Below are positions 2,886 through 39,550 of a stretch of DNA of 64,000 bases, piece after piece. The notes beneath the pieces are model-generated. The model worked only from the letters and a program-made list of their open reading frames with translations, did no database searches and was not told the origin of the DNA. Position 1 is the first letter of the stretch, and every line of letters starts with the position of its first letter. The position numbers were made by a program, and so were the translations under genes. Source of the DNA: Asterella californica (lineage: Eukaryota; Streptophyta; Marchantiopsida; Marchantiales; Aytoniaceae); assembly GCA_036924285.1 (NCBI GenBank), contig JAYKYS010000005.1:20620001-20684000 (forward strand). The letters run 5' to 3'.

Positions 2886-3636
2886 TTTTACCCCCGGACT
2901 AAATTTTCACTCCGTCCTCGGAGTGAAGAGAGAACTTTCGTCTATGAAATAACTTCAACTTGTCATGGTTGACACGATCAAATCTCCTTCCTCCCAGTTC
3001 TTGAAGGTCATATGTGAAGTTGCTCCACACCTTATCTACAGCAAAAGGACCAGAATATCTAGGAAGAAACTTCTTCCTAGCCCTCTTGAATCTGATAGCA
3101 TCATACAACATTACCCAGTCTCCGACTTGAAAAGGTTTTACCTCCCTCTTACCCAATCGTTTGTCGTAACTCTTCTTTTGATATGTTTGAGCTCGTTCCT
3201 TCCGGATCATTGCTACCGCTCGGGTCCTCTTCCAACTCCATGAGTTGCTCTCTTCTTGATCTGACCACGTCTTCTCTCCTCGACCTCTTCAACTTTCATT
3301 GAATAGTTTGAAAAGTATCCAATTCGAATTGGATCGGCAACTTGGACTCCATTCCATTAACCAGTTAAAATGGGGAGTACTCAGTAGAAGTCTTTGTTAT
3401 CTTTCGATACTCTATGTAGCATGTAGCCTCTTATCCCAAGTATGTTTCGTAGTCTCAACACCAGCATCTTTGACGAGCATCATACAAAGTGTAAGATTGG
3501 TCTTCTCCGCAAGATCATTAGCATTTGGTTTGTATGAGATAGTTACTTGTGACTTGATAGAAAAGTGTTGTAGCATAGCAGTAGTCATGCTCCCTACAAA
3601 CTCTCCTCCTCTATATGAGACCAACTCTTACAGACA
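2886..3636 (-). pseudogene. pol: Family C integrase, C-terminal half (C1, distal piece)
   Basis: Minus-strand remnants of the C1 integrase. At 2899-3210 the C-terminal domain contains VKPFQVGDWVMLYDAIRF and a GPF-type motif (RYSGPFAVDKVW), then HDKLKLFHRRKF. At 3412-3624 there is part of the catalytic core around SYRGGEF and SYKPNAN, where an aspartate expected near RGGEF is lost. Frames are shifted between these pieces. The integrase resumes at 24925, beyond the 21-kb GE-1 insertion. C2 at 44756-45500 is the closest relative in the window. Confidence 0.8.
3632..3636. repeat. Left target duplication of GE-1 (AGACA)
   Basis: AGACA precedes the GE-1 start, and GGACA at 24920-24924 follows its end. 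The related C2 site near 45490 reads 'acggacatcc', so GGACA is the likely original and the left copy carries one G to A change. Five bases. Confidence 0.7.
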
Positions 3637-10593: not shown

Positions 10594-12604
10594 TGTCGAG
10601 GAGAGTCCTTCTCAGGAAGGGCAAGCCTTCTGGCTGTGATAGATCGCGAGATAGAAGTAGAGATTGTATACCAAGACAAGAGCCAAGCAAGAGATTGCAA
10701 CAGCTGAAGTCACCCACAGTGACTATGACTATAGATCACTTACTAATCAACAGATCAAGTCTCAAGTCTCAGGAGACAGATCCACCTTCAGACACAACAG
10801 ATAGGAAAATACTGAACTCACGATGCTTTATTTCTCTTCCAAACACACTCAATAGTCCTCCACATATATCAATTTACAGTCTATCTCTACTCAACTCCTT
10901 ACGTTGATCACCGCAGATGTCAAACAGCCAATTCCCACTCAACTGGTCTTTTCTCCAGCAGATTTCTCTCCAGAACCTTCAACTGATGAAGATCTGAACT
11001 CCAACGCCTTGTATCCCCTCCAACGACAGCTTCAACACTGAAATTTCTCAGAAAAACCTGACCTTCTCAGTCTCAGTCCTCCTCCTCCGCTCAAATAATG
11101 CTCTCTTTCCACCAAATTCACCTCAACTCAAGCCTAATAGGTGAAATTTGGACACCAAACTCTTAATCCCCTCTCTGCGTCAACCTCTCAACTGAAAATT
11201 ATCAAGAATTTAATCCAACGTCAATCAAGAGTCCCTTGCAGATTATCAAAACGATCTCCTGAATAAAACTGCCTCCTGTCCGATCAGAAGAAATTCTGCC
11301 TCCAAACTGCTCTCAGTCCCCCAAATACTTGTCCGTCCCTCTGTCACGATCACCCAAATCCTCAATTCAGTTCTCTCCGGAAAAATTGATCTCCCTCAGC
11401 CTTCAAGCTTCTCCTTGCGCTTCAGCTCCCAGCTCTCTGTAAAAAAATCTCCTCAGAAAAGTGTCCCCGATCTTCAGCCGTCGCAGGTACTTGACCTAAA
11501 GGCTAAGGGCCCAGCTTAAGCTGCCCCCCTGCTGTCCTTATAAGCACAGTCGCTTATCACAAGCAGGCCCCCAGCTTAAGCTGCCCCCCTACTGTCCTTA
11601 CGTACAAAACTCTTCTTTCAGAACTGACTCTTTTTTAAATAAAAGTACACAGCTACCTCTGTAAAGCAGACTCCTTCACTGTAAAACATCACACTGCTTC
11701 CTTCGCCATTGCTAAACCGACTCGATGGATAAATAACAGATTGACAAAAGTTTCCCGTGCCCTTGATGTCATCTTGATGCCACCCTGAATATACTACAAG
11801 CCATCCAATGTAGACCGAAGCCCTAACACTTATGGGGCTGCCCCACAGGGCTTATAGCCCCCCCATATGCGCACCAGGTATCTCCCATAGTATATTCAGG
11901 ATGGCATGCGGAGGCTTAGGCCAGGAAGTTCACGATTAAGGGAGATATCGGTCTCCCGCCCCTAGATATGCAGGACATGGCTGCACACCCAACATAGACT
12001 CCCATCCGGGAGGCCAACATGCCGGAATAGGAACCAGAGGCCAGGAGGGATTGATCCTGAGACCACTTCCCTCCTAGGCAGGCGCCCTATCACTGGGATG
12101 GCCTTTGGTTCCGTTTAAAACAGTAAAATTCTCTGTACACATGCTTTTACTAAGAAATTTCTCTGTAAAGTCTTTACTAGCCTTTCCTACACTAACTTCA
12201 CTATACAACTCCGTTTTTAATGAATAAAGAGTCAAAATTATAGTACTTGTGAACACCTACACGCTCACGCTATCAGATTCTGAGTTTAAGCCACGAGCTA
12301 AAATCGACAGATTTCCCTCTTTCATACATTTCCCAGTCTAAAACCCGCACTAACTACTGCTTAAAACACTTTCTGTCGAAACTGGAAGCACGAAGTCGCT
12401 CTCCTCGCCGAGCTCTGCATTCTAATGCTCTTCGACTTCTTTCAATGTGATATTTCAGTCTAAGCTAGGGGGCAGCTTGTCAAGCATGGCCCCAGCTTAG
12501 CTCCTGCCCAGCTTGATAAGCTAGGGTGCAGCTTCTCGAACAAACGCAGGCCGAGTGTCTTCTGAAGTTCCATTTCCGCACCTTGAACGTCATGCACTAC
12601 GACA
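10594..12604 (-). repeat. B1 3' LTR
   Basis: A 2011-bp LTR with TGTCG...CGACA ends. It contains a tRNA-like segment (12044-12103), an inverted-repeat pair around 'gccaccctgaatatacta' (about 11778 and 11892), and two direct repeats of 'cagcttaagctgcccccct' near 11511 and 11571. Differences from the other LTR include positions near 10800, 10917, 11748, 11846, 11935 and 12193. The polypurine tract adjoins its inner edge. Confidence 0.93.
12044..12103 (-). ncRNA. tRNA-like segment with A and B boxes inside LTR
   Basis: On the minus strand the run CCCAGTGATAGGGCGC resembles a tRNA D-arm/A box. GGTCTCAGGATCAATCC, about 26 bases on, resembles the T-arm/B box. The spacing fits a tRNA. Homologous segments occur in the other B1 LTR (20422-20481) and, diverged, in B3 LTRs (53753-53812 and about 57717-57776, plus). 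It is always sense to the element. A tRNA-derived SINE head fixed in the LTR is the likeliest reading. A functional tRNA is unlikely because no good acceptor stem or CCA-proximal pairing is seen. Confidence 0.4.
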
Positions 12605-12621
12605 TTCACCCCCTCCAAACC
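12605..12621 (-). other. B1 polypurine tract
   Basis: Minus strand GGTTTGGAGGGGGTGAA lies directly before the 3' LTR start. It is the expected plus-strand primer. The adjacent 'cataccggaggatg' block is conserved beside all family B polypurine tracts (B2, B3, B4 and, diverged, B6). Confidence 0.85.
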
Positions 12622-12650
12622 TGCACATCCTCCGGTATGTGCCAACTTTT

Positions 12651-13190
12651 TCAGTAGTCTCCAAGGTTCTCTAAATCGTCGTCGTCTTCTTCAACGTCCC
12701 CTTCGTCTTCTTCGGATAGCAGATCTGCTTCGACATCCATCATCTGATCTGACTCTAGAAATTCACCTAGCTCAACGGATCCTCCCCTTCTTCTGAACAA
12801 CTTGATCCGCTTGCCAGCAACAGGAAGTCTTAGATGTGTACCATCAAGCTCCTTTAAAGAATAAGTAGCATTCTGATACACTTCTAAGACAACATACGGA
12901 CCAAACCACCTCCTAGAAAATTTCCGAACTGTAGAGTGCTGATTCTCTAATGTGCTGTCATACACCAAAACCCAATCTCCAGCATGTATGAGCTTCGGCC
13001 GGAGTTTATGGGTCTTGTCAAACCTGTCTTTGTTCTTGAGACGGGCCTCTTTCAGCTTCTGTTGTGCCTCTATAAGATCCTCCTCCCTATGTTCTAACTG
13101 TCTGATTCGAAGTGTCAGAAGTTGTACACGATCCGAAGTGTCAGAAGTTGTACATGATCCATTTCTTCCTCCCATGGTAAAGTAGCCCAT
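12651..13190 (-). CDS. pol: B1 integrase C-terminal region (frame-shifted)
   Basis: This 179-residue frame carries the end of the B1 integrase: HREEDLIEAQQKLKEARLKN, GDWVLVYDSTLENQHS, the GPY/F motif RRWFGPYVVLEVYQ, LPVAGKRIKLFRRRG, then a highly acidic tail (EEDEGDVEEDDDDLENLG). No chromodomain is visible. It is out of frame with the main pol ORF because of a 26-bp tandem duplication at 13108-13159. It would not be translated as part of the polyprotein without a further shift. In B2 and B3 the same region follows the integrase core. Confidence 0.8.
   Translation of the reverse strand: MGYFTMGGRNGSCTTSDTSDRVQLLTLRIRQLEHREEDLIEAQQKLKEARLKNKDRFDKTHKLRPKLIHAGDWVLVYDSTLENQHSTVRKFSRRWFGPYVVLEVYQNATYSLKELDGTHLRLPVAGKRIKLFRRRGGSVELGEFLESDQMMDVEADLLSEEDEGDVEEDDDDLENLGDY
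13108..13159 (-). repeat. 26-bp tandem duplication in B1 integrase
   Basis: Two copies of a 26-bp unit (13108-13133 and 13134-13159) differ at one base. B2 (near 37010) and B3 (near 52725) have a single unit. Because 26 is not a multiple of three, the duplication throws pol out of frame just before the C-terminal domain. Confidence 0.9.
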
Positions 13191-16100
13191 GTAGGAAAGT
13201 CCTCTTCTGCTGGCATAATCGGCTTCTGACCCAGCATCAGTTCAGTGGGCATGTACCCAGTAGTAGTGCAATGAGTCGACCTGTCAGCCCACAGAGCAAA
13301 AGGAAGCAACCTAGGCCACTGTCTATGCCTACCATCACATGCCTTTACCAGAGCTTGAACAATCGATGGATGCCCTCTCTCGCTCTTACCAATCCCTTTC
13401 GGATTCATAGCAGTAGTGAGTTTTAGTTTCACTCCGTGTTGGGCGAAGAACTCCTTTGCTTCCGTACCACGCAACTCTCCTCTGTCTGCACGCAATCTTC
13501 CTATAGATCCGTACCTACAGATAATATCTTCAAGAACAAACCTACATATTCCTTCTGTGGTCTTCGTCCTTAGGGCTCGTCCTTCCACAAAATTGGAGAG
13601 GTCTTCTCGAGCCAACACCAAGTACCTCATACCCCATGACCCAGGAGGCATTGCTACTAAATCAAGAACCCATTGAAAATGGATACTGGGCGGATAAGTT
13701 GGTACCAGACCATTCCTGTAACGTACCTTTGAATAAAATTGACAGTGTAGGCATGAGCTTACAAAGTCCACCACATCCTTATAAAGTCCTCTCCACCAAT
13801 ATCTCTCCTTCAGTTTTGTATAGGTAGCCCAAGCTCCTCGATGTCCGGCCCACAAGGTGTCATGAAACTCCTTCATCAGCCGTCGCTTGATCTGCTGATC
13901 GTCTATAACTCGCAAAAGTGCTCCATCTCTTCTCTTTGGACGTTTCCAAAGATATCCATCTCGCAACAAGTAATCGTATGCCTTTCTCCTTATCTCTCTG
14001 AACTCTACATCACTCAAACCCTCCTGTCTGTTCAAAGAACTCAGATAAAATCCAATGTCACGTAACCTTCCCGTGTAGAACTCCTCTTTGAATGGCAGTG
14101 GCTCCAGATCCGAAGTTTGCTGACTACACCAAACATCTCTCTTCTCTTCGTTCTCCACCTCTGCAAACATCTCATCCTCATCTATGTAGCGAGCCCTAGA
14201 CAGCATGTCTGCAACTGGATTCTCTTTCCCGGCAATGTGTTTAAGCTCAAGGTTCAAACTCCGGATGTAAGCAATCCATCTCAACATTGCTATGTCTGGA
14301 GTACTGCAGTTTGCTATCATACCGAGCAAGGGCAAACAATCTGTTTCTAAAATTACATGAGCACCTATCAAGAACTCCCGATCTACCTTCATAGCAGTAA
14401 CAGCTCCCCATAGCTCACGCTTTACTTGAGGATAGTTACGTTGTCTGTTTGTCAAAATCCGGGCTCCAAATCTAGAAACAAACCGCACACCATCTGCATT
14501 TTCTTGACCAACTGCCCATCCAATCGCCTTTGGACTCGTGTCTACAGTTAGTATCACAGGTCTTCCTCTCTGATAGTTAAGTCTCCTTAGTATGGGTGGA
14601 GACTTCAGAATCTCCTTCAGCCGTTCCATTGTCTCATGATGTTCTTGCCGCCAAGTAAACCTCTTCCCTTTTCTCAGAAGCGCATACAAAGGCTCGGCAA
14701 TGTGTGCATAATGAGGAATACTCACACGAAAGAACACACAAGCTCCCAAAAAACGTCGAACCTCAGTGATATTCGTACAGTCTGCTATCCTTGCTATAGC
14801 ATCTACCTTCTCTGGGTTCGGTCTTCTTCCAAATGTGCCACACAAATGACCAACCACCATAACCTCTGACATCCCAAAACGAGACTTAGTACCTGATAGA
14901 GTGAGGTGTACCTCCTCCAGACGTGTTAGAATCCTACCCACGTCATGAATATGATCAGCAATATACTTCCTGCAACCATTGGAAGTCACAGTCTCATCCT
15001 TGTCTTCCACCGGACAGCCTTTCATGGGAATGTCATCCAGAAATGGGATAGTGATCTCAGGTACAAATTCTCGCAACACCTTATGCATCGCGTTCTGCAT
15101 ATGTGCTACAGAGTTTGTTGCTCCCTGAGGAAGAGTGCACATCCGCATCAATCCCAAAGGCGTGCGCATGGTAGTCAAGTCTCTACTCTCCAAGGCAAGT
15201 TGAAACTGATCATAACCCGAAAACAAATCTCCAATAGAATAGACAGACCTTCCAGCAAACGCCTCAGCTACCTCATCAACCACAGGTCCTGTTTTCACGT
15301 TCCGAATCGTGATGTTGTTGGCAGGCTGCAAGTCTTGGATAAAGCGCAAAGCCCCTGACTTCTTAGGCACCGTGAACCATCGGCTGGAATACGGAGCCAT
15401 GGAAGGCTCGAGGATACCCATCTGCATCTTCTCCTTCAGTAGCTCAATGAGCTTTGGCAGCAAGGCACGAGGGACTGGAATCGGCTTCAAGTCCCAGGGC
15501 ACATGAGGTACAGTGAAGATAACCATCGGAGCTATCACACTAGGATCTACACAACCAATCTCTTCAGCTGAAAAAGAAAATGCTCTACCATGACTGACAA
15601 TCATCTGTTCAAAAATCTTCTTCTCTACTTCAGTCAAGAACCCACCCCCTCCTATCTGGAGTTGTTCGAGTGTTTCCTGAGTAAACTGATGCCCTATTCG
15701 TCCAGGATTTCTGAGTACAGGCTCAGTGGCGGCTGACTCCATCTGCTGTTGCGAATCAACAGGCAATTGGGTCGCCACAGGCTTCACCTTCCTTGCTACA
15801 GCTTTATATTTGGCGTGTACCTCTGCTTCCTGACGAGAGCCGCACCAGCAGACTGCATCCTTCCATTCATTCTCCAGTCTCGGATGAGGACGATATCGCA
15901 AGTACGAGACAATCTCTTCATAGACTTCAAGAAAATGGATGGGGATCACCACCCTACCTCCCAACTGTTCTTCCATCTTACCCACTTCATCTAGCCAACG
16001 AACAAAAGATTGTACACCGATAAACTCTTGATACACACCAGAAATCATTTCATTTTCTTCCAGAGCTCCTATACAGCACAGATCAGTTATACGTTTCTCC

Positions 16101-16276
16101 ACCTGCCTCCTACTCCTTTCAGTAAGATCTTCTACTCTTGTAAATTCACTCCAATCCTCACAACTCAAACTCAACAAACTAGATCTCCAACTTGGTACTC
16201 TATATACATTCTCAGAACCTCGAGCAGCCTCCTCATTAGTCTCATGTGATCCCTTGGGCTGCTCAAGCGGGATCAT
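13115..16276 (-). CDS. pol: B1 pol: reverse transcriptase, RNase H, integrase
   Basis: A 1053-residue open frame. RT (about residues 250-470) has PVPRALLPKL, KKSGALRFIQDLQPANN, IGDLFSGYDQFQLAL, LPQGATNSVAHMQNAMHK and the catalytic FLDDI. RNase H has LTVDTSPKAIGWA, KRELWGAVTAMK, ETDCLPLLG and HIAGKENPVADMLSR. Integrase has the HHCC zinc finger (HDTLWAGHRG...CLHCQFY) and a D,D,E core (VLDLVAMPP, LRADRGEL, SERGHPSIV). The ATG at 16276 may not be the true start: the frame is open back through the gag-protease stop at 16327. This fits entry by -1 frameshifting at 16330-16336. The C terminus is lost to the 26-bp duplication. Products would copy and integrate the element. Confidence 0.93.
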   Translation of the reverse strand: MIPLEQPKGSHETNEEAARGSENVYRVPSWRSSLLSLSCEDWSEFTRVEDLTERSRRQVEKRITDLCCIGALEENEMISGVYQEFIGVQSFVRWLDEVGKMEEQLGGRVVIPIHFLEVYEEIVSYLRYRPHPRLENEWKDAVCWCGSRQEAEVHAKYKAVARKVKPVATQLPVDSQQQMESAATEPVLRNPGRIGHQFTQETLEQLQIGGGGFLTEVEKKIFEQMIVSHGRAFSFSAEEIGCVDPSVIAPMVIFTVPHVPWDLKPIPVPRALLPKLIELLKEKMQMGILEPSMAPYSSRWFTVPKKSGALRFIQDLQPANNITIRNVKTGPVVDEVAEAFAGRSVYSIGDLFSGYDQFQLALESRDLTTMRTPLGLMRMCTLPQGATNSVAHMQNAMHKVLREFVPEITIPFLDDIPMKGCPVEDKDETVTSNGCRKYIADHIHDVGRILTRLEEVHLTLSGTKSRFGMSEVMVVGHLCGTFGRRPNPEKVDAIARIADCTNITEVRRFLGACVFFRVSIPHYAHIAEPLYALLRKGKRFTWRQEHHETMERLKEILKSPPILRRLNYQRGRPVILTVDTSPKAIGWAVGQENADGVRFVSRFGARILTNRQRNYPQVKRELWGAVTAMKVDREFLIGAHVILETDCLPLLGMIANCSTPDIAMLRWIAYIRSLNLELKHIAGKENPVADMLSRARYIDEDEMFAEVENEEKRDVWCSQQTSDLEPLPFKEEFYTGRLRDIGFYLSSLNRQEGLSDVEFREIRRKAYDYLLRDGYLWKRPKRRDGALLRVIDDQQIKRRLMKEFHDTLWAGHRGAWATYTKLKERYWWRGLYKDVVDFVSSCLHCQFYSKVRYRNGLVPTYPPSIHFQWVLDLVAMPPGSWGMRYLVLAREDLSNFVEGRALRTKTTEGICRFVLEDIICRYGSIGRLRADRGELRGTEAKEFFAQHGVKLKLTTAMNPKGIGKSERGHPSIVQALVKACDGRHRQWPRLLPFALWADRSTHCTTTGYMPTELMLGQKPIMPAEEDFPTWATLPWEEEMDHVQLLTLRIVYNF

Positions 16277-16336
16277 AGTAGTCTTTGATCCTTCACTCTT
16301 GTCTTCCCGCTCTACAAGAGTGGGTTCTAAAAACCC
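16266..16336 (-). promoter_or_regulatory. B1 programmed -1 frameshift signal (putative)
   Basis: On the minus strand, protease-frame codons AAG GGT TTT TAG give the slippery heptamer G GGT TTT (16336-16330), directly before the stop. A 7-nt spacer (16329-16323) leads to a perfect 9-bp stem, CACTCTTGT (16322-16314) with ACAAGAGTG (16302-16294), closing an 11-nt loop AGAGCGGGAAG. The loop's AGCGGGA is complementary to TCCCGCT at 16272-16266, which would make a pseudoknot. A -1 shift enters the pol frame exactly. The same geometry occurs in B3 and B2. Known -1 sites have this design; activity here is inferred. Confidence 0.8.
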
Positions 16337-17331
16337 TTACCTCTACAAATAGGGGAGTCCCTCAAGGTCTGTCTGTTTCGCTCGTGGTTTGACCGAACAG
16401 TCAGAAATTGAACAGAATGTTTATCATCAGGACTACGGATCCTAGCAAAGTGTGACCCATCGTCCATCACTTTGGTCTCCATGCGCACTGCAGTGATATA
16501 GGGTTGACCAAGAATGACTGGATACGAAGCAGAAGATTGCACAAAAAAGTGCTGATCTACTTCTGCATCACCTATTCTTACTCTCACGTTAGGACAAGCT
16601 CCGTACAACTCTCCCTTCTGGTTGTTAGTAGCACGCAGCACCCATCCATGATTCAGCTCGATAGGCCACAATCCTCTCTCATATATCTCTCGTGACATGA
16701 TATTGATTTCGGATCCATGGTCAACTAAAGCAGCAATAGGTTTAGGCAAACTTCCAAGACGTACCCGTGTAGCAGTTGTAGCACGAGCCCAATGCCTCTT
16801 CTTGAAGTCACTGTCAACAATTGGGCTCTCCCCATCAGCTTCATCATCATCAGCTTCAGTAGTGCTAGTTCTAGCAACTAACGCCTCCTGCTGGTACCTC
16901 TTGTCACAAGTCTCCTGAAAATGTACCTTCCCAAACTCCACATCATTTACAGAAGCTCCTATCACATCTATCATTTGGCTCTCTACCTGCTCAGATATGA
17001 CTTGCCTCTTTCGCTTGATGACATCAATAATCAACTCATGAAACTCTCTCTTTGCGATACCAAGAACTTCTCGAAGCGAAAACTCAACCCGTGCATCTAA
17101 TATCCTCTGCTCCAGAATGCTTTTAAGATCGGTGGAGGTCTCAATATCTGCAGCCAGCTTGTAAGCAGGCCCTTTCCCCTTCTCTTGAGCAGTGAACCTT
17201 CTGCCAGCAGTCGTTGGTTCCTGCTGTTGTCTCTGTACGTCCTCCATTGGACCTGGAGCAGGTGGTGGAGTCTGTGAGGTAGACGGAACATCCTCTGGAG
17301 GAGCTGCACGTCTTCTAGTGACCCTCCGTCC
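16327..17331 (-). CDS. B1 aspartic protease region of gag-PR
   Basis: Open from just after the TAG at 17332-17334 to the TAG at 16327. The ATG at 17247 is the first Met (306 residues). The segment LREVLGIAKREFHELIIDVI is conserved in B2 and B6. The retropepsin core is IAALVDHGSEINIMSREIY with D-H-G-S where D-T/S-G is usual. LYGACPNVRVRIGD, YPVILGQPYITAVRMETKV and a final SNHERNRQTLRD follow. It is in the same frame as gag, and the pol frame is -1. Protease activity is inferred from position and fold-like motifs. The His in the active-site loop is unusual but conserved in B2 and B5. Confidence 0.85.
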   Translation of the reverse strand, partial: GRRVTRRRAAPPEDVPSTSQTPPPAPGPMEDVQRQQQEPTTAGRRFTAQEKGKGPAYKLAADIETSTDLKSILEQRILDARVEFSLREVLGIAKREFHELIIDVIKRKRQVISEQVESQMIDVIGASVNDVEFGKVHFQETCDKRYQQEALVARTSTTEADDDEADGESPIVDSDFKKRHWARATTATRVRLGSLPKPIAALVDHGSEINIMSREIYERGLWPIELNHGWVLRATNNQKGELYGACPNVRVRIGDAEVDQHFFVQSSASYPVILGQPYITAVRMETKVMDDGSHFARIRSPDDKHSVQFLTVRSNHERNRQTLRDSPICRGKGF

Positions 17332-17334
17332 CTA
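17332..17334 (-). other. In-frame TAG between gag and protease in B1
   Basis: A single amber codon separates gag (17335-18498) from the protease frame. B5 and B2 lack a stop at the matching place, so it is probably a copy-specific lesion. Readthrough cannot be excluded. Confidence 0.8.
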
Positions 17335-18498
17335 TCCCTCTCTAGTCTCCTCTGGATTCCCAGTTTCGAGCTCAGAGGCATCTCGTCGCCTCTTCTCCTC
17401 TACAGAAGCGTCATGCCAATGAACATGCTTATCTACGTCCAAGAAAGCTTTAATGGACGCTGTATCTACGGGATCTTTCCACCCTATGACTCTATGGATA
17501 GTTTCTGCTCCTCTTTTCAACACCTCAGAAGGAACCTCAGTACTGTTCTTATCAAGAGACCTATCCAGCAAAGTAGGGCTAGAAGAAACTTTAATATGCC
17601 CAGCATACACATCAAGATTCATCGGCGGTATTGTTACTGTAGTTACTGTTGCAGTTGCAGCGACTTGAGGTAGACTCCTCATACCTCCTCGTCCAAACTG
17701 CGTGTTTAATGGCTCTCCGGTAGAAACAAGGTGCAGTCTACCATTTTGATAGCGAACCACACCATCTCGTAGAGCAGTTGTAAGCTCTTGGCAATCTCCT
17801 CGAAGATGATCTGGACTGTCACACCAGATACACCTACGGATAGGAGCACCCCCTGGACGAGCAGCACCAGGCGTTGGTGGGAGCTCCCTATGTAAACCAG
17901 CCAGCTCTACTTTCAATTCACGCATCTGTCGGATCAACTCCTCAATTTGATTGTGCTGACCCTGGTTCTCAACCACCCTCTGAACAGGTACCCTCTGTGC
18001 AGGAACTGGCACAACTGGCACTGGAGGCGCTTCTACAGGAATAACAGGTCTAGGAGCAAGAGCCGGGGGCTGTTGTACCTGAGGAACATAAGGTTGATGG
18101 ATCACCTCTGCAAGCGGTCGTCCTCCTATGGCCACTCTCCCTCGCCGCTGTCTTGTTAAAACGGCCACAGCATCTTCCACTCTTCCCCAATCCATAGTAA
18201 CACCTCCTTCAGCTGATCGATCTGCTAACATGAAGCATAATCGATCTGCTGTAGCCTCATCGGTGGCTTGCAAGAAGAGCTCTGTCCTTCTAGCATCCAA
18301 AGTTATTCGTTCGAGCGTCGAAAGCTGTCGGTATCTTCGATCGAACTCTCTTAGCAACTCATTCAACCCCATCCTATGGCCAGGTTGCTGCTCAATCCAA
18401 TCCAAAAAAGTCCTCCTAGTAACTCTCTCAGAATCCTCCTCCAGGAATTCCTCTCGGAGAGCTCGCCCAAACCCCAAGATTGCCCAAAACTTGCCCAA
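17335..18498 (-). CDS. gag: B1 gag: capsid to nucleocapsid part
   Basis: A 388-residue frame. The capsid-like part includes REEFLEEDSERVTRRTFLDW, LNELLREFDRRYRQLSTLER and FLQATDEATADRLCFMLADR. A Pro/Val-rich linker follows, then a CCHC knuckle with exact CX2CX4HX4C spacing (CIWCDSPDHLRGDC), then AETIHRVIGWKDPVDTASIK. The first ten or so residues are out of register: the real N-terminus lies in the preceding frame (18363-18887), separated by the 28-bp duplication. Homologues are B2 31572-33324 and B5 41900-43872. Confidence 0.85.
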
Positions 18499-18887
18499 AC
18501 CCCAAGATTTCTCCTCTGTACATCTCTGACTTGATCTCTCAACTTAGGAATCACAGCCAACTCAAAACTTCCAATCATCTCTGCATCGGTCACCCTCACA
18601 AGCTCCATCTCTCCTCTGTACTCACGAAGATATCTGGAAATATCCCTGCCTTCAAATCTTCCACACCTATTTACAATCGCCTGCAAAGCTTTTGTAGATT
18701 TCAACTCACCCCCTCCGACGATCGGATGTTGTTGAACCAAAGCTGCAAGCGTCTTCAATATCTCAATAGTATCCAGGCCTGATGCTGCAGTGGCTGCTGA
18801 AGACATAGGTGTAGCCGAAGGTGCAGCAGTAGACGTCGATGCTCCAGCCGTAGAGGCAGTAGCACCACTCCCGCTCTTGCGATCCAT
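18363..18887 (-). CDS. gag: B1 gag N-terminal part (frame-shifted)
   Basis: From the ATG at 18887 (MDRKSGSGATASTAGASTST) a low-complexity Ala/Ser/Thr leader runs into the capsid N-terminal region: LKTLAALVQQHPIVGGGELK, RCGRFEGRDISRYLREYRGE and ELAVIPKLRDQVRDVQRRNL. It then meets the 28-bp duplication and continues out of frame as missense. The ATG is chosen because it begins the block aligned with B2's MSGDEKGDGDG start. An upstream Met in the same frame is not conserved. Confidence 0.8.
   Translation of the reverse strand: MDRKSGSGATASTAGASTSTAAPSATPMSSAATAASGLDTIEILKTLAALVQQHPIVGGGELKSTKALQAIVNRCGRFEGRDISRYLREYRGEMELVRVTDAEMIGSFELAVIPKLRDQVRDVQRRNLGVWASFGQSWGLGELSERNSWRRILRELLGGLFWIGLSSNLAIGWG
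18465..18510 (-). repeat. 28-bp insertion/duplication in B1 gag
   Basis: The block 'gcccaaaccccaagatt' appears at 18465 and again at 18493, spaced 28 bp, with a partial third 'gcccaaaac' between. B5 at about 43690-43715 has a single block and an open frame. 28 is not a multiple of three, so gag is frameshifted. Confidence 0.88.
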
Positions 18888-18945
18888 CTTCCCTTGATAT
18901 GCAAATCTCAACCTCAGCAACCTCAGCGATTAATCACCCCAAGAT

Positions 18946-18965
18946 GACTCTCAGTGGAAGCACCA
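18946..18965 (-). other. B1 primer binding site, tRNA-Thr-like
   Basis: Minus strand TGGTGCTTCCACTGAGAGTC starts six bases inside the 5' LTR. Its complement would be a tRNA 3' end with CCA and an acceptor strand TGGAAGC. From memory this resembles plant tRNA-Thr, whose 5' end is GCTTYCA. The same TGGTGCTTCCACT occurs after the B3 LTR at 54942. Confidence 0.75.
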
Positions 18966-18971
18966 GATTTA

Positions 18972-20982
18972 TGTCGAGGAGAGTCCTTCTCAGGAAGGGC
19001 AAGCCTTCTGGCTGTGATAGATCGCGAGATAGAAGTAGAGATTGTATACCAAGACAAGAGCCAAGCAAGAGATTGCAACAGCTGAAGTCACCCACAGTGA
19101 CTATGACTATAGATCACTTACTAATCAACAGATCAAGTCTCAAGTCTCAGGAGACAGATCCACCTTCAGACACAACATATAGGAAAATACTGAACTCACG
19201 ATGCTTTATTTCTCTTCCAAACACACTCAATAGTCCTCCACATATATCAATTTACAGTCTATCTCTACTCAACTCCTTACGTTGATCACCGCAGATGCCA
19301 AACAGCCAATTCCCACTCAACTGGTCTTTTCTCCAGCAGATTTCTCTCCAGAACCTTCAACTGATGAAGATCTGAACTCCAACGCCTTGTATCCCCTCCA
19401 ACGACAGCTTCAACACTGAAATTTCTCAGAAAAACCTGACCTTCTCAGTCTCAGTCCTCCTCCTCCGCTCAAATAATGCTCTCTTTCCACCAAATTCACC
19501 TCAACTCAAGCCTAATAGGTGAAATTTGGACACCAAACTCTTAATCCCCTCTCTGCGTCAACCTCTCAACTGAAAATTATCAAGAATTTAATCCAACGTC
19601 AATCAAGAGTCCCTTGCAGATTATCAAAACGATCTCCTGAATAAAACTGCCTCCTGTCCGATCAGAAGAAATTCTGCCTCCAAACTGCTCTCAGTCCCCC
19701 AAATACTTGTCCGTCCCTCTGTCACGATCACCCAAATCCTCAATTCAGTTCTCTCCGGAAAAATTGATCTCCCTCAGCCTTCAAGCTTCTCCTTGCGCTT
19801 CAGCTCCCAGCTCTCTGTAAAAAAATCTCCTCAGAAAAGTGTCCCCGATCTTCAGCCGTCGCAGGTACTTGACCTAAAGGCTAAGGGCCCAGCTTAAGCT
19901 GCCCCCCTGCTGTCCTTATAAGCACAGTCGCTTATCACAAGCAGGCCCCCAGCTTAAGCTGCCCCCCTACTGTCCTTACGTACAAAACTCTTCTTTCAGA
20001 ACTGACTCTTTTTTAAATAAAAGTACACAGCTACCTCTGTAAAGCAGACTCCTTCACTGTAAAACATCACACTGCTTCCTTCGCCATTGCTAAACCGACT
20101 CGATGGATAAATAACAGATTGACAAAAGTTTTCCGTGCCCTTGATGCCATCTTGATGCCACCCTGAATATACTACAAGCCATCCAATGTAGACCGAAGCC
20201 CTAACACTTATGGGGCTGCCCCACAGGGCTTACAGCCCTCCCATATGCGCACCAGGTATCTCCCATAGTATATTCAGGATGGCATGCGGAGGCTTAGGCC
20301 AGGAAGCCCACGATTAAGGGAGATACCGGTCTCCCGCCCCTAGATATGCAGGACATGGCTGCACACCCAACATAGACTCCCATCCGGGAGGCCAACATGC
20401 CGGAATAGGAACCAGAGGCCAGGAGGGATTGATCCTGAGACCACTTCCCTCCTAGGCAGGCGCCCTATCACTGGGATGGCCTTTGGTTCCGTTTAAAACA
20501 GTAAAATTCTCTGTACACATGCTTTTACTAAGAAATTTCTCTGTAAAGTCTTTACTAGCCTTTCCTACGCTAACTTCACTATACAACTCCGTTTTTAATG
20601 AATAAAGAGTCAAAATTATAGTACTTGTGAACACCTACACGCTCACGCTATCAGATTCTGAGTTTAAGCCACGAGCTAAAATCGACAGATTTCCCTCTTT
20701 CATACATTTCCCAGTCTAAAACCCGCACTAACTACTGCTTAAAACACTTTCTGTCGAAACTGGAAGCACGAAGTCGCTCTCCTCGCCGAGCTCTGCATTC
20801 TAATGCTCTTCGACTTCTTTCAATGTGATATTTCAGTCTAAGCTAGGGGGCAGCTTGTCAAGCATGGCCCCAGCTTAGCTCCTGCCCAGCTTGATAAGCT
20901 AGGGTGCAGCTTCTCGAACAAACGCAGGCCGAGTGTCTTCTGAAGTTCCATTTCCGCACCTTGAACGTCATGCACTACGACA
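18972..20982 (-). repeat. B1 5' LTR
   Basis: A 2011-bp LTR, same length as 10594-12604. On the minus strand this is the promoter-bearing copy. It contains the second tRNA-like segment (20422-20481) and the same internal repeats. Flanked outside by GCGT (20983-20986). Confidence 0.93.
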
Positions 20983-29476: not shown

Positions 29477-29560
29477 TGTCGTGTCGTGGACCGGCTCCTA
29501 CCTGAAATTCAAACTTCGATGCTTGTCGCTCCAAAGACACTCATGAGAAGACAAGTTAGG

Positions 29561-30040
29561 CCCCAGCTTACGGATTTTGGCACAATCTCAGATCTCCATT
29601 TTCATCGCATAGATGGATAGAGCTCGTTGTCAGCTTTTCATAGGCATCTTGTCTACTTCGTTTGGGCGCCTAGTGGAGAAGTTACAAGACTCGAAAGATG
29701 GAGAAAATAAGCTCGGCCCCAACTTACGGGTTTTTGGCACCACTTCGGATCTTCGTTTTTATCGCACCAGTGGACAGAGCTCCTTGTCAGCATTTCATAG
29801 ACACTTTGTCTACTTCGTTTGGACGCATAGTGAAGAAGTTACAGGACTCGAAAGATGGAGAAAACAAGCTAGGCCCCAGCTTACGAGCTTTTGGCGCAAC
29901 TTCGGATCTTTACTTTTATCGCATAGATGGATAGAGCTTGTTGTCAGCTTTCCATGGGCATCTTCTTTATTTTGTTTGGACATCCATGGAAGAAGTTATG
30001 TGATTCGAAAAAAGGCAAAATCAAGCTAGACTCCTAGTTA
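29561..30040 (+). repeat. Tandem ~157-bp units in B2 LTR
   Basis: The block 'ggccccagcttacg' or a variant recurs at about 29559, 29715, 29872 and, diverged, 30029, at 156-157 bp spacing. Each unit also has 'tttggcac.actt.ggatct' and 'acttcgtttgga'. The array is present in the 3' LTR and in solo LTR 55108-57122. Being in U3, it may act as repeated enhancer or silencer sequence. Confidence 0.8.
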
Positions 30041-31368
30041 CTTGCTGACTGGGTATTTAGGGCTTCAGGCATTATATCAAAGACGCAAGGGGCCTGCTTC
30101 TTATTATTCAGGGGAAAACTGTACGTACAGAGACTGTTGCAAGGGGGGTGCTTAAGGGGTTAGCTTGCGTCTACGACCTGTCAACGAACGGTTCGGGAGA
30201 TTTAGGAGTCCAATGCAAGCGCGCAAGGCGTCGTTGGGTTTAGATCTGTGCAGGCTACGCACTGGTTCAAACGGTTTTGGAAGAGACGGATCGGGGAGTG
30301 CGTATTGAGTGAAATTGAGACGGAGGAGGCAGATTTGGAGTTTTCAGTTACCTGTGAAGGAGAGTTGGACCGTTCGGGCCGTTCCGGAGTCCAAACTTGT
30401 TGTCCTTGGATCCCTCGGGATCAGAACAACGAGTTCTTCAGGAAATTGAAGACGATACCAGTTTTCATCGGACGGTTTGGGAGTTGTGAGTGAAATTGGT
30501 TCACAGGGAAGCGCTTGCGTCAAGTTTTTCATCTCCTGCGACCTGAGATTGGATTGTTCTTCGCGATCGGTGAGCCAAGCTCTTCGTTCTTGGTGCCTAC
30601 GCGATCAGGGAGTCCTCATGTACGCATAGGAGAAGACTGTAAGTGAATTGGATTGTTGGTTTGGGTGTGGTGAGCGAATTTGAGCCGTAGGGAGCCGATT
30701 TACGTCAGTTTTTTGCAACCTGCGACCAAATTTCTCGAGTGGTTTTGCAAAGGGAACTCCAAACGGCTTGTTTGGAGTCTTGTTGGGTTCAGGGTAGCCA
30801 GATCTACCTACCAGCGAAGACGGATATCAGTTTAGACGATCCGTTTGTGCGGTGTGAGCGGTTTTAAGCCACAGGGAGGAGCTTTTGGAAGTTCGGTCAC
30901 CTGCGACCGAAAATCACCGATATCTCGACTATCGGGAGTCGGATCTGAAGGTTTCTTGAGCCAAAGGAGTCAAGGAAGGAGACCCTATCGACATTTGAAG
31001 ATCGTTTAGCGAAAAGAGGAAGTCCACAGATAGGCTTTTTTCGGTTTCTTCGCTACGGGTTTTGCTCTTTTGAGTTCGTTAGAGTTCTGGTTGGCTGTAT
31101 ACAGCTTGTGGTAGCTAGCTTTAGCTAAGAGCTTATACATGGATGTGGTTTGGACTTGAGTTTGAATCGCGTGATATTGTTGTAGCTCTGTTTGTTAGCA
31201 AAGAGAAGTTTCTCTTGCTTTGAGCTACGCTTCGGTGATTCTGGGTCAGGGTTGTGATTCAAGGGTTGCTTTTAGGGGCTTTTGAAGCAGGTTATAGACT
31301 GCTCTGGTCTGGTTCTCAGTTCTATGCTCTTAGAAGAAAGAATCGACAATGTACATACATTTGGAGTG

Positions 31369-31375
31369 TATATAT
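31369..31375 (+). promoter_or_regulatory. Candidate TATA box of B2 LTR
   Basis: TATATAT sits about 120 bases before the LTR end. The same place has TATATAT at 39420-39426 and TATATAT at 56995-57001. Position and conservation fit a U3/R promoter. No transcript evidence. Confidence 0.45.
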
Positions 31376-31571
31376 CGCAGCGTTTGTTTTCGTGGTTGTT
31401 TTTCTCTGTCTCGTCTCTGTTTCAGCACACAACATCTCCACAGCCAGGAACCTCGCGCTTTCCTGGACATCCTTCACGCAATATCCGACACGATACGGTG
31501 ATGAACTCGACGTGAAGGTCTGGGGTGGAGATTTCTTCTGTGTGTGAACTTTGAAGAAGAGATTGACAGTC

Positions 31572-32144
31572 ATGAGTGGGGATGAGAAAGGTGATGGAGA
31601 TGGAGCTAGTGGTTCAAGTGGGTTACCGAAGGTGCAGTTGGATCCGGCGACTGCATCGATGTTCCAAGCTTTCACTATGTTCTTACGGCAGCAACAGTCT
31701 GATGAGCGGAAGGAAGCTTTGGCAACAAAGGCGCTACAAGCGGTGGTCAGCAGGATTGACCAGTTTGATGGAAGAGATGTCTCAAGGTATCTGAGACATT
31801 ATGTGAAGGAGATGGAGCTGAACCGGGTCTCAGAAGATGAGATGATTGAGACGTTTGAGTTGGCAGCAGCTCCAGAGATTAAGGATCGTGTTAAAATGCT
31901 AACGAAGCATTTTAACAAGGATTGGGAGACTTTTGCTCGTGCCTTGATGGATGAGTACTTATTGGAAGACTCTGATCGAATCACCAAGAAGTCATTCTTG
32001 GAGTGGGTTGAGCAACCAAGGAAGGGTTTACAAGCTACTGAGTTGCTCAGAGAGTTTGAGAAGCAGTTTTCACGGCTGACCAAGATGGAGAAGTTGACGT
32101 TGCAGTCCAACAAGACAAAGCTATTTCTTTCGGGCTGCAGATGA
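31572..32144 (+). CDS. gag: B2 gag, N-terminal part
   Basis: From ATG 31572 (MSGDEKGDGDGASGSSGLPK) through FTMFLRQQQSDERKEALATK, VSRIDQFDGRDVSRYLRHYV, FELAAAPEIKDRVKMLTKHF and SDRITKKSFLEWVEQPRKGL. This is a capsid-like helical domain matching B1. The frame ends at 32142 through a one-base gain in the G run at about 32132-32134; gag continues in the next frame. The ATG is supported by its position after the leader and its alignment with B1. Confidence 0.85.
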   Translation: MSGDEKGDGDGASGSSGLPKVQLDPATASMFQAFTMFLRQQQSDERKEALATKALQAVVSRIDQFDGRDVSRYLRHYVKEMELNRVSEDEMIETFELAAAPEIKDRVKMLTKHFNKDWETFARALMDEYLLEDSDRITKKSFLEWVEQPRKGLQATELLREFEKQFSRLTKMEKLTLQSNKTKLFLSGCR

Positions 32145-33324
32145 GAAGTTGCAGGAGAAGCTAGAGGTACTTCTGGAAGACCGGGAGGAGGACGATGGAT
32201 TGACCAGCAGCTGGAAGAAGGTTGAAGAAGCTGTTGGTCTGCTTACCAAGAGGGAGCGGAGACGAGAGAAAGTTGCTGTTAGGAGACTGGCACCAACACC
32301 TACAGCTGTAACACCTGTTCCTGTAGTCCGATCAGTTCCCGTTGCTAGACAAGTAGTACCAGTTGCTCCAGCTGTTCCTGTTGTTCCTGTTGTTCAGGCA
32401 CCCATGGTATCTCCGAAGAAGGATGACTCAAACCTTGAGGAGATATTGCATGGAATGCGAGATCTGCAGATCAAGCTCACCAGATTGGAAGAGAAAGGAT
32501 CTACAAGTGGAGTAAGACCGGTTGAGAAGCAAGGCTGGATCCAGCGGTGTATCTGGTGCGATGGTATTGATCATCCGCGCAGAGATTGCAAGGAGTTCAC
32601 AGATATTCTGCAGCAAGGAGTGATCTTCTGGAAGGATGGGAAGGTAGCGCTTAGGGATACTGGTGCGCTTCTTCAGACCAACTTTGGTAGGGGAGGGATG
32701 AAGAAGTTGGTTGAGGACCACCTATCAGCGCAAGCAGTTGCAATGGTGGAAGCTGGAACTTATGGCACAAGGGTTGAGGATCAAGCTGAAAGGAGTTTCA
32801 ACAAGGAGGTTGAGCCAAGTGGATTGTGGTCATCTGCCATCTCCATGAAACAAAAAGGGAAGATGGCACGTGAAACATTGATGAGGACAGCTGCTACGAT
32901 CAGAAGGGATACTGGATGGGAGGATCCGATAGAAACTCTATCGGTGCATGCTTACATCACCAAGAACCAACACGAAGCGTTGTTGGAAGAGAAGAGAAGG
33001 CGAGATTCAGAGGATGCAGGGGAAGGAACTTCTTCCAAGAGACAGACTCGAGGGGAGAAGGTTCGCCAAGAGCTTCGGGATGCAGGAGCTCAAGACCTAC
33101 CGATGGACGATGCTCCTTCTTCATCGAAGGAGAAATCTCAGAAGGAGAAGGGTAAGCCGGCTGCGTACAAGCTACAGTCGGATATCGAGGCGTCAACAGA
33201 CTTGGAGGGAGTCTTGGAAGATCGCATTCTGAATGTGAAGGTGGAGTTTACTTTGAGAGAAGTGTTAGGCATCGCCAAGCGTGAGTTTCATGATGTCATC
33301 ATCGATGTCATCAAACGAAAATGA
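32145..33324 (+). CDS. gag: B2 gag, C-terminal part with zinc knuckle
   Basis: A long frame whose first in-frame codons restore gag after the shift (DEKLQEKLEVLLEDREEDDG). A Val/Pro-rich linker follows, then LRDLQ-type coiled coil, then the knuckle CIWCDGIDHPRRDC with exact CX2CX4HX4C spacing. After that come LLQTNFGRGGMKKLVEDHLS and FTLREVLGIAKREFHDVIID. It stops at 33322 with TGA followed by TAA where B1 reads Arg-Gln. Both are single C to T changes, so the ancestral frame ran on into protease. Confidence 0.85.
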
Positions 33325-33327
33325 TAA

Positions 33328-33990
33328 ATTACGGGTGAGACTGGGTTATCACATGCTTTGGATACTAGGATGTCAGTGGATGAGGAGAGAGAGTTTGCAA
33401 GGTGCAGTGTCTATTCTCCAGAGGAAGAAAGAGATCGAAGGCGCAGGGTGCATTTCGAGGATGAAGAGGAGGATGGGAAGTGGAGCTCAAGTCATTACAG
33501 CCACAGTCACTGGGCTCGAGCTACGATGGAGACGTTGGTGAGGATCGAGGACTTGGATGAGCCGGTGGTTGCTCTGATCGATCATGGATCAGAAATCAAC
33601 ATCATGTCGAAGGAGCTGTACAAGAGGAAGAAGTGGCCGATCGACACAAAGCATGGATGGGTCATAAGAGCAGCCAACAACACGAGAGGAGACTTGTATG
33701 GAGCTTGTCCAGACATCAGAGTGCGCGTAGGTGATGTTGCTATCGAGCAAAACTTCTTTGTTCAGGAAGCAACATCATACCCACTCATTCTGGGCCAACC
33801 TTTCATCATAGCAACCCGGATGGAGACAAAGGTACTGGACGACGGATCTGCGTATGCTAGGATCCGAAGTCAAGATGGGAAGAGAGCGGTACAGTTCCTG
33901 ACTGTACCGTCCAACCACGAGCGCAACCGAGATCGTTTGAGAGAGAAGTCGCTTCCAAGAGTGAGTGAAGAGTTCAAGGATTTTCGTTGA
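33328..33990 (+). CDS. B2 aspartic protease region
   Basis: Same frame as gag after the double stop; first ATG at 33358. Core VVALIDHGSEINIMSKELYK shows D-H-G-S. Further conserved blocks are WPIDTKHGWVIRAANNTRGD, LYGACPDIRVRVGD, YPLILGQPFIIATRMETKVL and SNHERNRDRLRE. It ends at TGA 33988-33990. The last codons, AAG GAT TTT CGT, mark the decayed frameshift heptamer, and pol lies in the -1 frame. Confidence 0.85.
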   Translation: MTGETGLSHALDTRMSVDEEREFARCSVYSPEEERDRRRRVHFEDEEEDGKWSSSHYSHSHWARATMETLVRIEDLDEPVVALIDHGSEINIMSKELYKRKKWPIDTKHGWVIRAANNTRGDLYGACPDIRVRVGDVAIEQNFFVQEATSYPLILGQPFIIATRMETKVLDDGSAYARIRSQDGKRAVQFLTVPSNHERNRDRLREKSLPRVSEEFKDFR

Positions 33991-34042
33991 GTATCACTAT
34001 AGAGCGGGATTGTGGTGGTGCGCAAGAGAAGGTACTCTCGCT
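33978..34042 (+). promoter_or_regulatory. B2 frameshift signal, heptamer decayed
   Basis: G GAT TTT (33978-33984) differs by one G to A from the B1/B3 heptamer. The 7-nt spacer (33985-33991), 9-nt arms (33992-34000 and 34012-34020) and 11-nt loop AGAGCGGGATT keep exactly the B1 geometry. The arms TATCACTAT and GTGGTGGTG differ widely from B1 yet pair fully (five Watson-Crick, four G-U). TCTCGCT at 34036-34042 can pair with the loop's AGCGGGA. Confidence 0.7.
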
Positions 34043-34103
34043 TGATGGAGATAGTGCCTTTTGTATAGGATTTATTGGATTTTCAGAGTGAGGGATTGCT
34101 ATC

Positions 34104-34680
34104 TACAAGAAGGTAGAAGAACTGAGAAGAAAAGAACAAAAACATTTGCGTGATGTTGAGTTGATGATGAGAGAGTTGGGTGAACTAGAAAGAGATGAAT
34201 GGATTTCTGGTGTTTATGAAGAGGATGGGTTGGAGGATCCTTTGCGAGAGATCATGTCTATTGGATGGGGGGATATGGATAAAGTTGTGCATATTCATTC
34301 AAGGGAGGTCTATTTGGTGATCGAATCATTCCGTGCACCTGAGGTTCAAGTTGAGACGAAGTACAAGACCGTGGACAAGAAGATAAAGCCAGTTGCTGGT
34401 CCTTTGCCGGAAGACACTAACCAACAGATGGATCGAGCGTCAAGGGAGAAGAGTTTGAGAGATCCTGCAATGATAGGACACAAGTTCACAGAGAAGACCC
34501 TTGAAGAGCTGAAGATTGGATCTGATGAGTCTCTTCTACCAGAAGAGAGGATGTGCTTCAAAGAGATGCTTTCACGACATGGGAAAGCATTTGCTTTTGA
34601 GCCACATGAGATTGGGTGTGTAGATCCGTACGTTGTTATCCCGATGGTTATTTTCACAGTACCGCATGTGTCATGGGCTG
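34104..34680 (+). CDS. pol: B2 pol, region before RT
   Basis: The -1 frame relative to protease, broken by a TGA near 34100. From 34146 it gives ELGELERDEWISGVYEED, VHIHSREVYLVIESF, KYKTVDKKIKPVAGPLPEDT, IGHKFTEKTLEELKIGSDES and IGCVDPYVVIPMVIFTVPHV, all aligned with B1 pol residues of about 80-250. A two-base loss in the Trp-Asp-Leu codons near 34677 throws the frame before RT. Confidence 0.8.
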
Positions 34681-36234
34681 AGACCAATTCCAGTACCGCG
34701 GGCTCACTTGCCCAAACTAGTGGAATTGCTGAAGGAGAAGATGCGGATGAAGATCTTGGAGCCGTCGTTTGCACCGTATTCGAGCAGATGGTTTACAGTA
34801 CCAAAGAAGAATGGGTCGCTGTGGTTCATCCAAGACATGCAGCCGGTGAACGCAGTAACAATCAGAAATGCTGAAGTGGGACCGATTGTGGATGAGTTTG
34901 CAGAAGCATTTGCAGGAAGAGCGATTTACTCGATGGGAGATCTTTACTCAGGGTATGATCAGTTTCAACTAGCGGAGGAGAGCAGAAGCTTCACGACAAT
35001 GAGGACACCTTTGGGGTTGGTTAGGATGTGTACTTTACCGCATGGAGCTACCAACTCGGTAGCACACATGATGAACGGGATAAATCGAGTTCTAAGAGAC
35101 TTCATTCTTGAAAAGACGATGCCGTTCTTGGATGACATCCCCATTAAAGGATGTGTGGAAGATGAGAAGGATGAAGCATTAGATCAGAGGGGGTGTCGGC
35201 GATACGTCACTGATCACATCGCAGACTGTGAGAAGATCTTATCTCGACTTGAGGAAGTTCATCTTACGCTGTCAGGTGCGAAGTCTACATTTGGAGTTAG
35301 AGAGGTTTTGATCGTTGGTCATTTGTGTGGATCGTTTGGTCGGAAGCCAGATCCGAACAAGGTGGATGCGATTGGAAGGATGAAGGAGGTTTGCAACTCG
35401 CTGACAGAAGTAAGAAGATTTTTGGGTGCTTGTGTATTCTACCACATTTGGATTCCTCATTATGCGCATGTGGCGGATCCGTTGTATGGATTGTTGCGTA
35501 AGGGTCATAAGTTCAGATGGGAGAAAGAGCATACTGATGCGGTAAGGAAGTTGAAGTCTTTACTATCATCTCCTCCAGTTCTGGGAAGGATTGATTACAA
35601 GGGTGCTAGGCCGGTGATTCTTACTGTGGATACAAGTCCAGTTGCAATTGGATGGGTTGTCGGACAGGATGATGAGAATGGAGACAGGTTTGCGGTTAGG
35701 TTCGGAGCGAAGGTGTTAAGTGCTCGACAACGTGCTTACCCGCAAGTGAAGAGAGAACTGTGGGGTATTGTTTCAGCTATGAAAGCTGAGAAAGAGTATT
35801 TGATTGGAGCAGTAGTGGTGGTTGAAACTGATTGCTTGCCGTTGTTAGGGATGATCATGAATTGTTCAACCCCTGATATTGCGATGTTACGATGGATCGC
35901 ATATATCAAGTCGTTGAACCCGGAGTTTAGACATATTGCAGAGAAGGATAATCTGATGACGGATATGTTATCTCGAGCTCGATATGATGGGGAGGATGAG
36001 ATGGTAGAAGACATTGACGACGTGGGTACAGAGTTCTATTCGATTGCACAGACAGGAAGGGAAGATGAGTTATTTGTTGAAGGGTTGTATGATGGTGATT
36101 TACTTGATATCGGGAAGTACCTTAGTACGATGGTTAAGCAGACAGGTTGGACGGATGAGAGATTTTGGAGAGTTCGAAGGAAGGCCTACAACTTCATGTT
36201 GCAGGATGGGTTTCTTTGGAAGCGACCGAAGTAG
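34680..36234 (+). CDS. pol: B2 reverse transcriptase and RNase H
   Basis: Open frame (listed start 34633, homology from about 34680). RT has PIPVPRAHLPKLVELLKEKM, KKNGSLWFIQDMQPVNAVTI, MGDLYSGYDQFQLAEES, LPHGATNSVAHMMNGINR and catalytic FLDDIPIKG. RNase H has LTVDTSPVAIGWVVGQ, KRELWGIVSAMKAEKEY, ETDCLPLLG and HIAEKDNLMTDMLSRA. It ends at TAG 36232 inside FLWKRPK, where B1 and B4 continue, so this is a nonsense change. The next ORF is in the same frame. Confidence 0.9.
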
Positions 36235-37457: not shown

Positions 37458-37515
37458 GACGATAAGCCGGTCCACTCCTTGGTTGGTATCTCTGGTGCAT
37501 ACCGGAGGATGCACA

Positions 37516-39546: not shown

Positions 39547-39550
39547 CTGT

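Follow-up and report, generated by a model that had tools for sequence, protein, structure and literature searches.

The boundary between protease and pol in a group of Ty3/gypsy retrotransposons of the liverwort Asterella californica is very probably a programmed -1 ribosomal frameshift signal, leading from Gag-PR to Gag-PR-Pol. The signal was recognized from sequence in a stretch of 64,000 nucleotides (the window), which holds three copies, B1, B2 and B3, of a single type of Ty3/gypsy element, as well as further fragments. Ribosomes on the gag-protease frame (frame 0) would arrive at G_GGU_UUU or G_GAU_UUU shortly ahead of the gag-PR stop, and a stem with a second helix, an H-type pseudoknot starting 3-11 nt past the heptamer, would hold them there. 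A minority of them would slip one base back and then read pol. We infer both this slippage and its outcome, a product ratio with much Gag-PR and little Gag-PR-Pol.

The three junctions in the window

B1 lies on the minus strand, and B2 and B3 were read on the plus strand. Their features are as follows.

10594-20982, minus strand: whole B1 element, delimited by LTR pairing and target duplication
17335-18543, minus strand: gag part of the B1 gag-PR frame, 403 codons, with a CCHC motif recognized by eye only
16327-17331, minus strand: end portion of the B1 gag-protease frame, 334 codons long and preceded by an in-frame TGA (17332-17334)
16330-16336, minus strand: B1 heptamer G GGT TTT, read directly, adjoined by the gag-PR stop TAG (16329-16327)
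13115-16336, minus strand: B1 pol in the -1 frame, 1073 codons, with RT, RNase H and integrase (Pfam)
16314-16322, minus strand: 5' arm of B1 stem 1, 9 nt, behind a 7-nt spacer
16303-16313, minus strand: B1 loop AGAGCGGGAAG, 11 nt, of which 16312-16305 are the 5' arm of stem 2
16294-16302, minus strand: 3' arm of B1 stem 1, read directly
16265-16272, minus strand: 3' arm of B1 stem 2, 8 bp with the loop, completing a putative H-type pseudoknot
about 29477-39551, plus strand: B2 element, a Ty3/gypsy copy
33978-33984, plus strand: B2 heptamer G GAT TTT, read directly; frame-0 stop TGA at 33988-33990
33991-34021, plus strand: B2 stem 1 and loop, 10 bp (33991-34000 with 34012-34021) around an 11-nt loop (34001-34011)
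34036-34043, plus strand: 3' arm of B2 stem 2, 8 bp with loop bases 34002-34009
49419-49425, plus strand: B3 heptamer G GGT TTT, read directly; frame-0 stop TAG at 49441-49443
49433-49461, plus strand: B3 stem 1 and loop, 9 bp (49433-49441 with 49453-49461) around an 11-nt loop (49442-49452)
49480-49483, plus strand: possible 3' arm of B3 stem 2, only 4 bp with 49447-49450, weak

The LTRs of B1 (10594-12604 and 18972-20982) are 2011 bp each and 99.5% identical, and a GCGT target duplication flanks the element on both sides. Pfam found no family in its gag part, and DUF4100 (E 2.1e-6) in its gag-protease frame; some relatives carry a peptidase A2 annotation. PDB sequences compared with the PR frame gave no match at E 1. 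RT, RNase H and integrase are the Pfam families found in pol of the window elements. In-frame stops interrupt the gag-PR frame of B1 (17332-17334) and B2 (33325-33327), and the same frame is open over about 810-863 codons in many relatives within this genome. A 157-nt tandem unit occurs in the B2 LTRs (29477-30041 and 37533-38097) and in a related stretch at 55110-55665.

At the junction, frame 0 of B1 reads AAG GGT TTT TAG, and that of B2 reads AAG GAT TTT CGT TGA. The -1 frame of B1 is open from the heptamer as far as 13115, and the C-terminal part of pol runs on in a different frame from about 13157. The -1 frame of B2 is closed by TGA 34089-34091, which marks this copy as damaged there.

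A preliminary description had given the three junctions one layout, with a 7-nt spacer, nine-pair stems and 11-nt loops. The stems, loops and spacer are as claimed, and B2 also pairs one position further out than B1 and B3, so that its spacer can be counted as 6 nt and its stem as 10 bp. The heptamers, too, are those named, each in phase, with pol in the -1 frame at all three places. In B1 and B3, TAA (16339-16337 in B1) immediately precedes the heptamer in the -1 frame; the -1 frame of B2 opens three codons upstream, behind TGA 33966-33968. The proposed pairing of the loop with downstream bases was recovered as 8 bp in each of B1 and B2 and amounts to just 4 bp in B3.

Within the window the stem is confined to these places. 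All nine pairs in this register occur at three of 68 GGRTTTY or AAATTTT sites on both strands, namely B1, B2 and B3, and the next best of the 68 heptamer-like sites has 6 pairs. The background rate of nine pairs over all 127,880 window positions is 2.8e-4. That the three sites with the stem are exactly the three PR-pol junctions counts in favor of a frameshift signal. The pattern GGGTTTTN{8,30}AGAGCGGG was found at two places in the window and in none of 100 shuffles. Model R1, which was built with B1, B3 and a sister of B2 included, finds the three junctions at E about 1e-8, the next match being at 0.78; Rfam gave no window match at gathering scores.

The energy of B1 stem 1 was matched by 2 of 4000 dinucleotide shuffles; when the part downstream was shuffled, 3 of 4000 versions matched its stem 2. 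The corresponding figure for stem 2 of B3 is 1338 of 4000. Folded alone, the hairpin has z <= -2.41 in seven of the eight junctions tested. The exception is B3 (z -1.15), whose minimum-energy fold is a different one and for which 28 of 200 shuffles fold equally well.

Copies in the genome and relatives elsewhere

The assembly of the same genome (516.7 Mb, 773 contigs) was searched for further junctions, which were located by protein similarity. A loose search gave 11,779 candidate places with the B1 protease end and 11,811 with that of B2, and 150 of each were scored. The best 30 B1-family and best 30 B2-family junctions were read, along with 20 of the 103 copies listed for a family C, found with the Riccia fluitans protein P0134 as query. 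In all, 100 junctions were read in this genome, B1 and B2 included, and 8 more in plant-like contigs of bacterial assemblies.

The heptamer is GGGTTTT in 30 of 30 B1-family copies and GGATTTT in 30 of 30 B2-family copies, in both of which it was partly selected because the queries ended in heptamer-encoded residues. No such selection applies to family C, in which all 20 copies have GGATTTT: P0134 aligned only up to residue 396-399 of 405, and its own end, SF, fits no heptamer. A frame-0 stop lies within 9 nt of the heptamer in 79 of these 80 copies, the exception being the interrupted L066. The -1 frame is open through all the fetched DNA in 15 of 30 B1-family, 19 of 30 B2-family and 19 of 20 C-family copies. 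Twenty further B1-family copies, picked by hand from the candidate list, all have GGGTTTT; stem 1 has nine pairs in 13 of them and eight in 7.

Some copies differ by paired changes. In L112, L114 and L117 of the B1 family a U-A pair of stem 1 is replaced by C-G, and in L034 a G-C pair of stem 2 has become A-U, the loop G and its downstream partner C being altered together. L051 and L130 have the loop change of L034 without the change in the partner, and L101 and L108 have another unpaired loop change.

Three copies were rejected as broken: L066 has a different sequence after the heptamer, and L039 and L044, of the B1 family, carry an LTR inserted in the loop. The inserted LTRs start with TGTCG and sit at GCGG within the frameshift loop, which fits an NCGN target preference; these elements are able to destroy their own frameshift signal.

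The top match of pol belongs to the liverwort Riccia sorocarpa (74% identity), and the remainder are from Riccia and metagenomes (120 of 214 listed). Among the matches listed, those closest to pol that carry a species name are from Riccia, which points to a liverwort, and not a seed plant, as host. Besides Riccia, the moss Physcomitrium patens and the fern Adiantum nelumboides are represented among the protease matches (120 of 253 listed). When bacterial genome contigs were scanned with a pol alignment, 10 loci came up, of which nine (L001-L008 and L010) are relatives with 53-65% identity in cyanobacterial assemblies and one, L009, is distant. Plant-type LTR retrotransposons in cyanobacterial assemblies (contigs CAKZGI and CADCWO) are probably contamination from a plant, host or neighbor. 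Viral contigs searched with pol, the pol alignment and the PR alignment held no relatives.

Eight junctions could be read in seven of the nine relative contigs; L006 and L008 gave no PR match. The heptamer is GGATTTT in L001, L003, L005 and L007, GGATTTC in both L002 copies and in L010, and GGTTTTT in L004. In L001 an open gag-PR of 2169 nt precedes an open pol of 3513 nt in the -1 frame; the corresponding lengths in L003 are 2082 nt and 3453 nt, likewise with pol in -1. L010 is decayed, and the pol frames of L002 end after 174 and 702 nt. L009, in a Beijerinckia contig that is itself probably contamination, has 33% pol identity and its own -1 overlap of gag-PR and pol (3260-3295), with an in-phase GGGAAAC immediately ahead of TGA.

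The arrangement of L004 is different. Its open gag-PR (2274 nt upstream) is followed by a pol that is open for 3300 nt and lies in the -2/+1 frame. The junction (2490-2520) reads CAG GTT TTT TAC TAG, with G_GTT_TTT in place of GGATTTT, and the family stem and pseudoknot are kept at a distance from the site one base less than in the relatives. The protein P0151 (4 members, tail DQVFY) matches the gag-PR side, and P0064 (6 members, start MIRFFTRTIANEGC) the pol side. P0064 differs in sequence from L004, which makes a single assembly error unlikely. A -2 shift is the favored reading of L004, a +1 shift or a recent defect being possible. The subfamily of L004, P0151 and P0064 may have moved from -1 to -2 frameshifting, a tentative proposal in which the direction of change is itself conjectural. 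G_GUU_UUU is the -2/-1 frameshift site of arteriviruses, as reported in PMC6675879, and L004 likewise combines G_GTT_TTT with an open pol frame at -2 (equally +1). In arteriviruses a C-rich motif and protein cofactors take part (PMC6675879), whereas L004 has the family stem and pseudoknot. If the proposal is true, a retroelement would here gain access to pol through a -2 shift, and the evolutionary change from -1 would still be visible.

The site can also be sought in the ends of related proteases. Of the 120 listed among 253 protease matches, 92 have the end-of-PR motif, 76 of these have a tail of at most 45 residues, and 62 tails are distinct. DF, GF or NF occurs within the last ten residues of 53 of the 62 and not in the other 9. 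It is C-terminal in 41, five codons earlier in 10, three in P0166 and six in P0176. In all 53 the residue before it has a codon able to complete GGATTTT, GGGTTTT or AAATTTT, a count in which the nucleotides are deduced from protein and the tails are related rather than independent events. The fitting tails include those of Physcomitrium (P0136, P0138), Adiantum (P0128, P0132, P0176) and Riccia sorocarpa (P0197). The motif filter removed 28 tails, of which P0183, P0218 and P0221 end in DF, in favor of the site, and P0134 ends in RSF, against it. The tails suggest that moss and fern relatives have the same frameshift site, and that the signal belongs to a group of elements common to liverworts, mosses and ferns.

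Covariation and the alternatives to frameshifting

Twelve divergent junctions were aligned with MAFFT by sequence only. L028, in which PR is present and the sequence diverges just past a degenerate site, and L009, whose sole homolog is its own cluster, were left out. The alignment gives a single register for stem 1 and contains one gap, in L004. The downstream frame is -1 in 11 of the 12 junctions (in L010 judged by local frames) and -2/+1 in L004. Stem 1 is paired in 90.0% of 120 cells, with both sides changed in 8 of 10 pairs, and the second helix in 76.2%, with both sides changed in 6 of 7 pairs; together the two helices are paired in 84.3% of 204 cells. The covariation of stem 1 is 0.668, compared to 0.325 +/- 0.045 in shuffled and at most 0.188 in slid controls, over which the structure has an advantage because it was derived from the same sequences. 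None of 500 shuffles reached the covariation of stem 1 or of both helices by any measure; the elements are related, and the search ranges were chosen after the junctions had been seen. The covariation foreseen for a larger alignment thus stands above its controls.

When 3' arms were swapped among 11 elements, none of 20000 permutations equalled stem 1 and 2 of 20000 equalled stem 2. In 9 of 11 elements at most 1 of 300 dinucleotide shuffles equalled both helices jointly; the number was 7 in L007 and 5 in L010, where stem 1 is weak unless a bulge or mismatch is allowed. Considered on its own, stem 2 stands out clearly in B1, B2, L003 and L004 (3 to 29 of 4000 shuffles equal) and not in B3, L001, L002a, L002b, L005, L007 and L010 (430 to 2196 of 4000). 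The pseudoknot that had been suspected, formed by the loop and a downstream tract and of the H type, is therefore supported over the set, and element by element in those four of the 11 only.

The conserved loop also codes for (V/I)ER(E/D) in pol, and protein constraint must contribute to its conservation. It could be argued that the block is just a conserved piece of pol protein ((V/I)ER(E/D) ... IP) and that the change of frame reflects the decay of old copies, many of which are indeed damaged. This is very unlikely. When codons of the -1 frame were resampled synonymously, stem 1 was equalled in at most 45 of 4000 trials at 8 of 11 loci, the exceptions being L005 (106), L007 (550) and L010 (369). 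Where L115-type and L112-type copies differ, a synonymous 5'-arm change is compensated in the 3' arm by a change of amino acid (AAG to GAG). Intact elements, moreover, retain the two-frame arrangement, as the preliminary description would have it: gag-PR and pol are kept apart by -1 in L001 and L003 and by -2/+1 in L004. Since the two frames of the intact L001 and L003 join at the heptamer, decay does not account for this arrangement.

An intron between PR and pol, similar to that of Ogre, in which splicing takes place between gag-PR and RT (PMC6317226), would make the T-run and AG a 3' splice site and the hairpin incidental. The Riccia sorocarpa gene models P0007, P0109 and P0117 do connect PR straight to the -1 frame before (T)PVERD, and GGGTTTTTAG, as well as TTTCAG in L002a, look acceptor-like. 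Splicing is nevertheless improbable, because the proposed introns would delete the end of PR, no AG directly follows the T-run in B2, L001 and L002b, and the phase of the heptamer, the fixed register of the stem and the covariation are left unexplained. The jumps in P0007, P0109 and P0117 look like introns predicted so as to bridge the frameshift. Independent production of pol, by re-initiation or internal entry past the gag-PR stop, might be read from the metagenome gene callers, which give pol as a separate protein with varying start codons. It is extremely unlikely, since in the elements read the pol frame opens merely 0 to 18 codons upstream of the heptamer, and since it leaves the slippery site without a role. 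Readthrough of the stop codon was rejected, as pol is in another frame.

It also speaks against the -1 frameshift itself that on GGATTTT only the A-site tRNA re-pairs fully, and that the pol of L004 is not in -1. GGGTTTT of B1 and B3 has the form X_XXY_YYZ, whereas the GGATTTT or GGATTTC of B2, family C and the other -1 relatives read is an exception of the PEMV type.

Comparison with known signals and significance

The heptamers have close counterparts in plant RNA viruses. According to PMC4737148, BYDV uses GGGUUUU, PEMV2 and other umbraviruses GGAUUUU, and GRV AAAUUUU. The BYDV, PEMV and GRV sites described there share with the present ones the heptamers, a stop at the site or 3 nt past it, a short spacer and a downstream structure. 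When GGAUUUU of PEMV was changed to GGGUUUU, frameshifting in wheat germ extract was 112% of wild type (PMC4737148). The unusual heptamer of B2 is therefore no ground for doubt. The structure in PEMV is, by the same account, a large stem-loop with bulges that pairs over a long distance with the 3' end, whereas that proposed here is a compact H-type pseudoknot at the PR-pol junction of a retroelement.

In Rous sarcoma virus, a vertebrate retrovirus, the protease lies at the end of the gag frame, the heptamer is a different one and the pseudoknot has a third stem. Its pol is entered via a -1 frameshift near the end of gag, as would be the case here (PMC5009743). Among the animal LTR elements surveyed in 2003 in the same source, pol is in -1, as in the present elements of other hosts, in 28 of 51, many of them with a classical heptamer. 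Plant LTR elements with separate frames had, as far as that account of 2003 goes, pol in +1. The sirevirus-type plant elements resemble the present ones in their separate gag and pol frames and conserved covarying stem (PMC5009743), but have a +1 frame, an 11-bp stem and a 4-nt loop, whereas here the frame is -1 with a heptamer and a pseudoknot. A large plant survey lists one frame in most groups and two in some (PMC6317226).

Phygy, a Ty3/gypsy lineage of Physcomitrella, is described as non-chromovirus; it prefers NCGN targets, and its duplications are mostly 4 bp long (PMC6317226, PMC6911290). The GCGT duplication of B1 fits NCGN, and moss proteins are among the PR relatives. In the few copies with readable flanks, B1 has GCGT on both sides, two further insertions are in GCGG, and B2 has CCGT on the left and a different right flank. 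Pol of B1 is cut short and the chromodomain was therefore sought in relatives; no chromodomain family was found in P0001 or the pol of L003 at E 0.001. The passages of PMC6317226 on Phygy describe no frameshift signal, and no description of the present signal was found in the open-access literature, searched mostly at the depth of listings.

Taken together, the junctions offer natural variants with which frameshift assays could be run in plant cells, and the heptamers shared with plant RNA viruses make both comparable in the same translation systems. Some of the gene models for such elements contain doubtful introns, which the signal may account for. In elements of liverworts, mosses and ferns, a -1 site combined with an H-type pseudoknot would add a route of Gag:Pol control to those of plant retrotransposons, one that would have been kept over deep divergence or spread horizontally.
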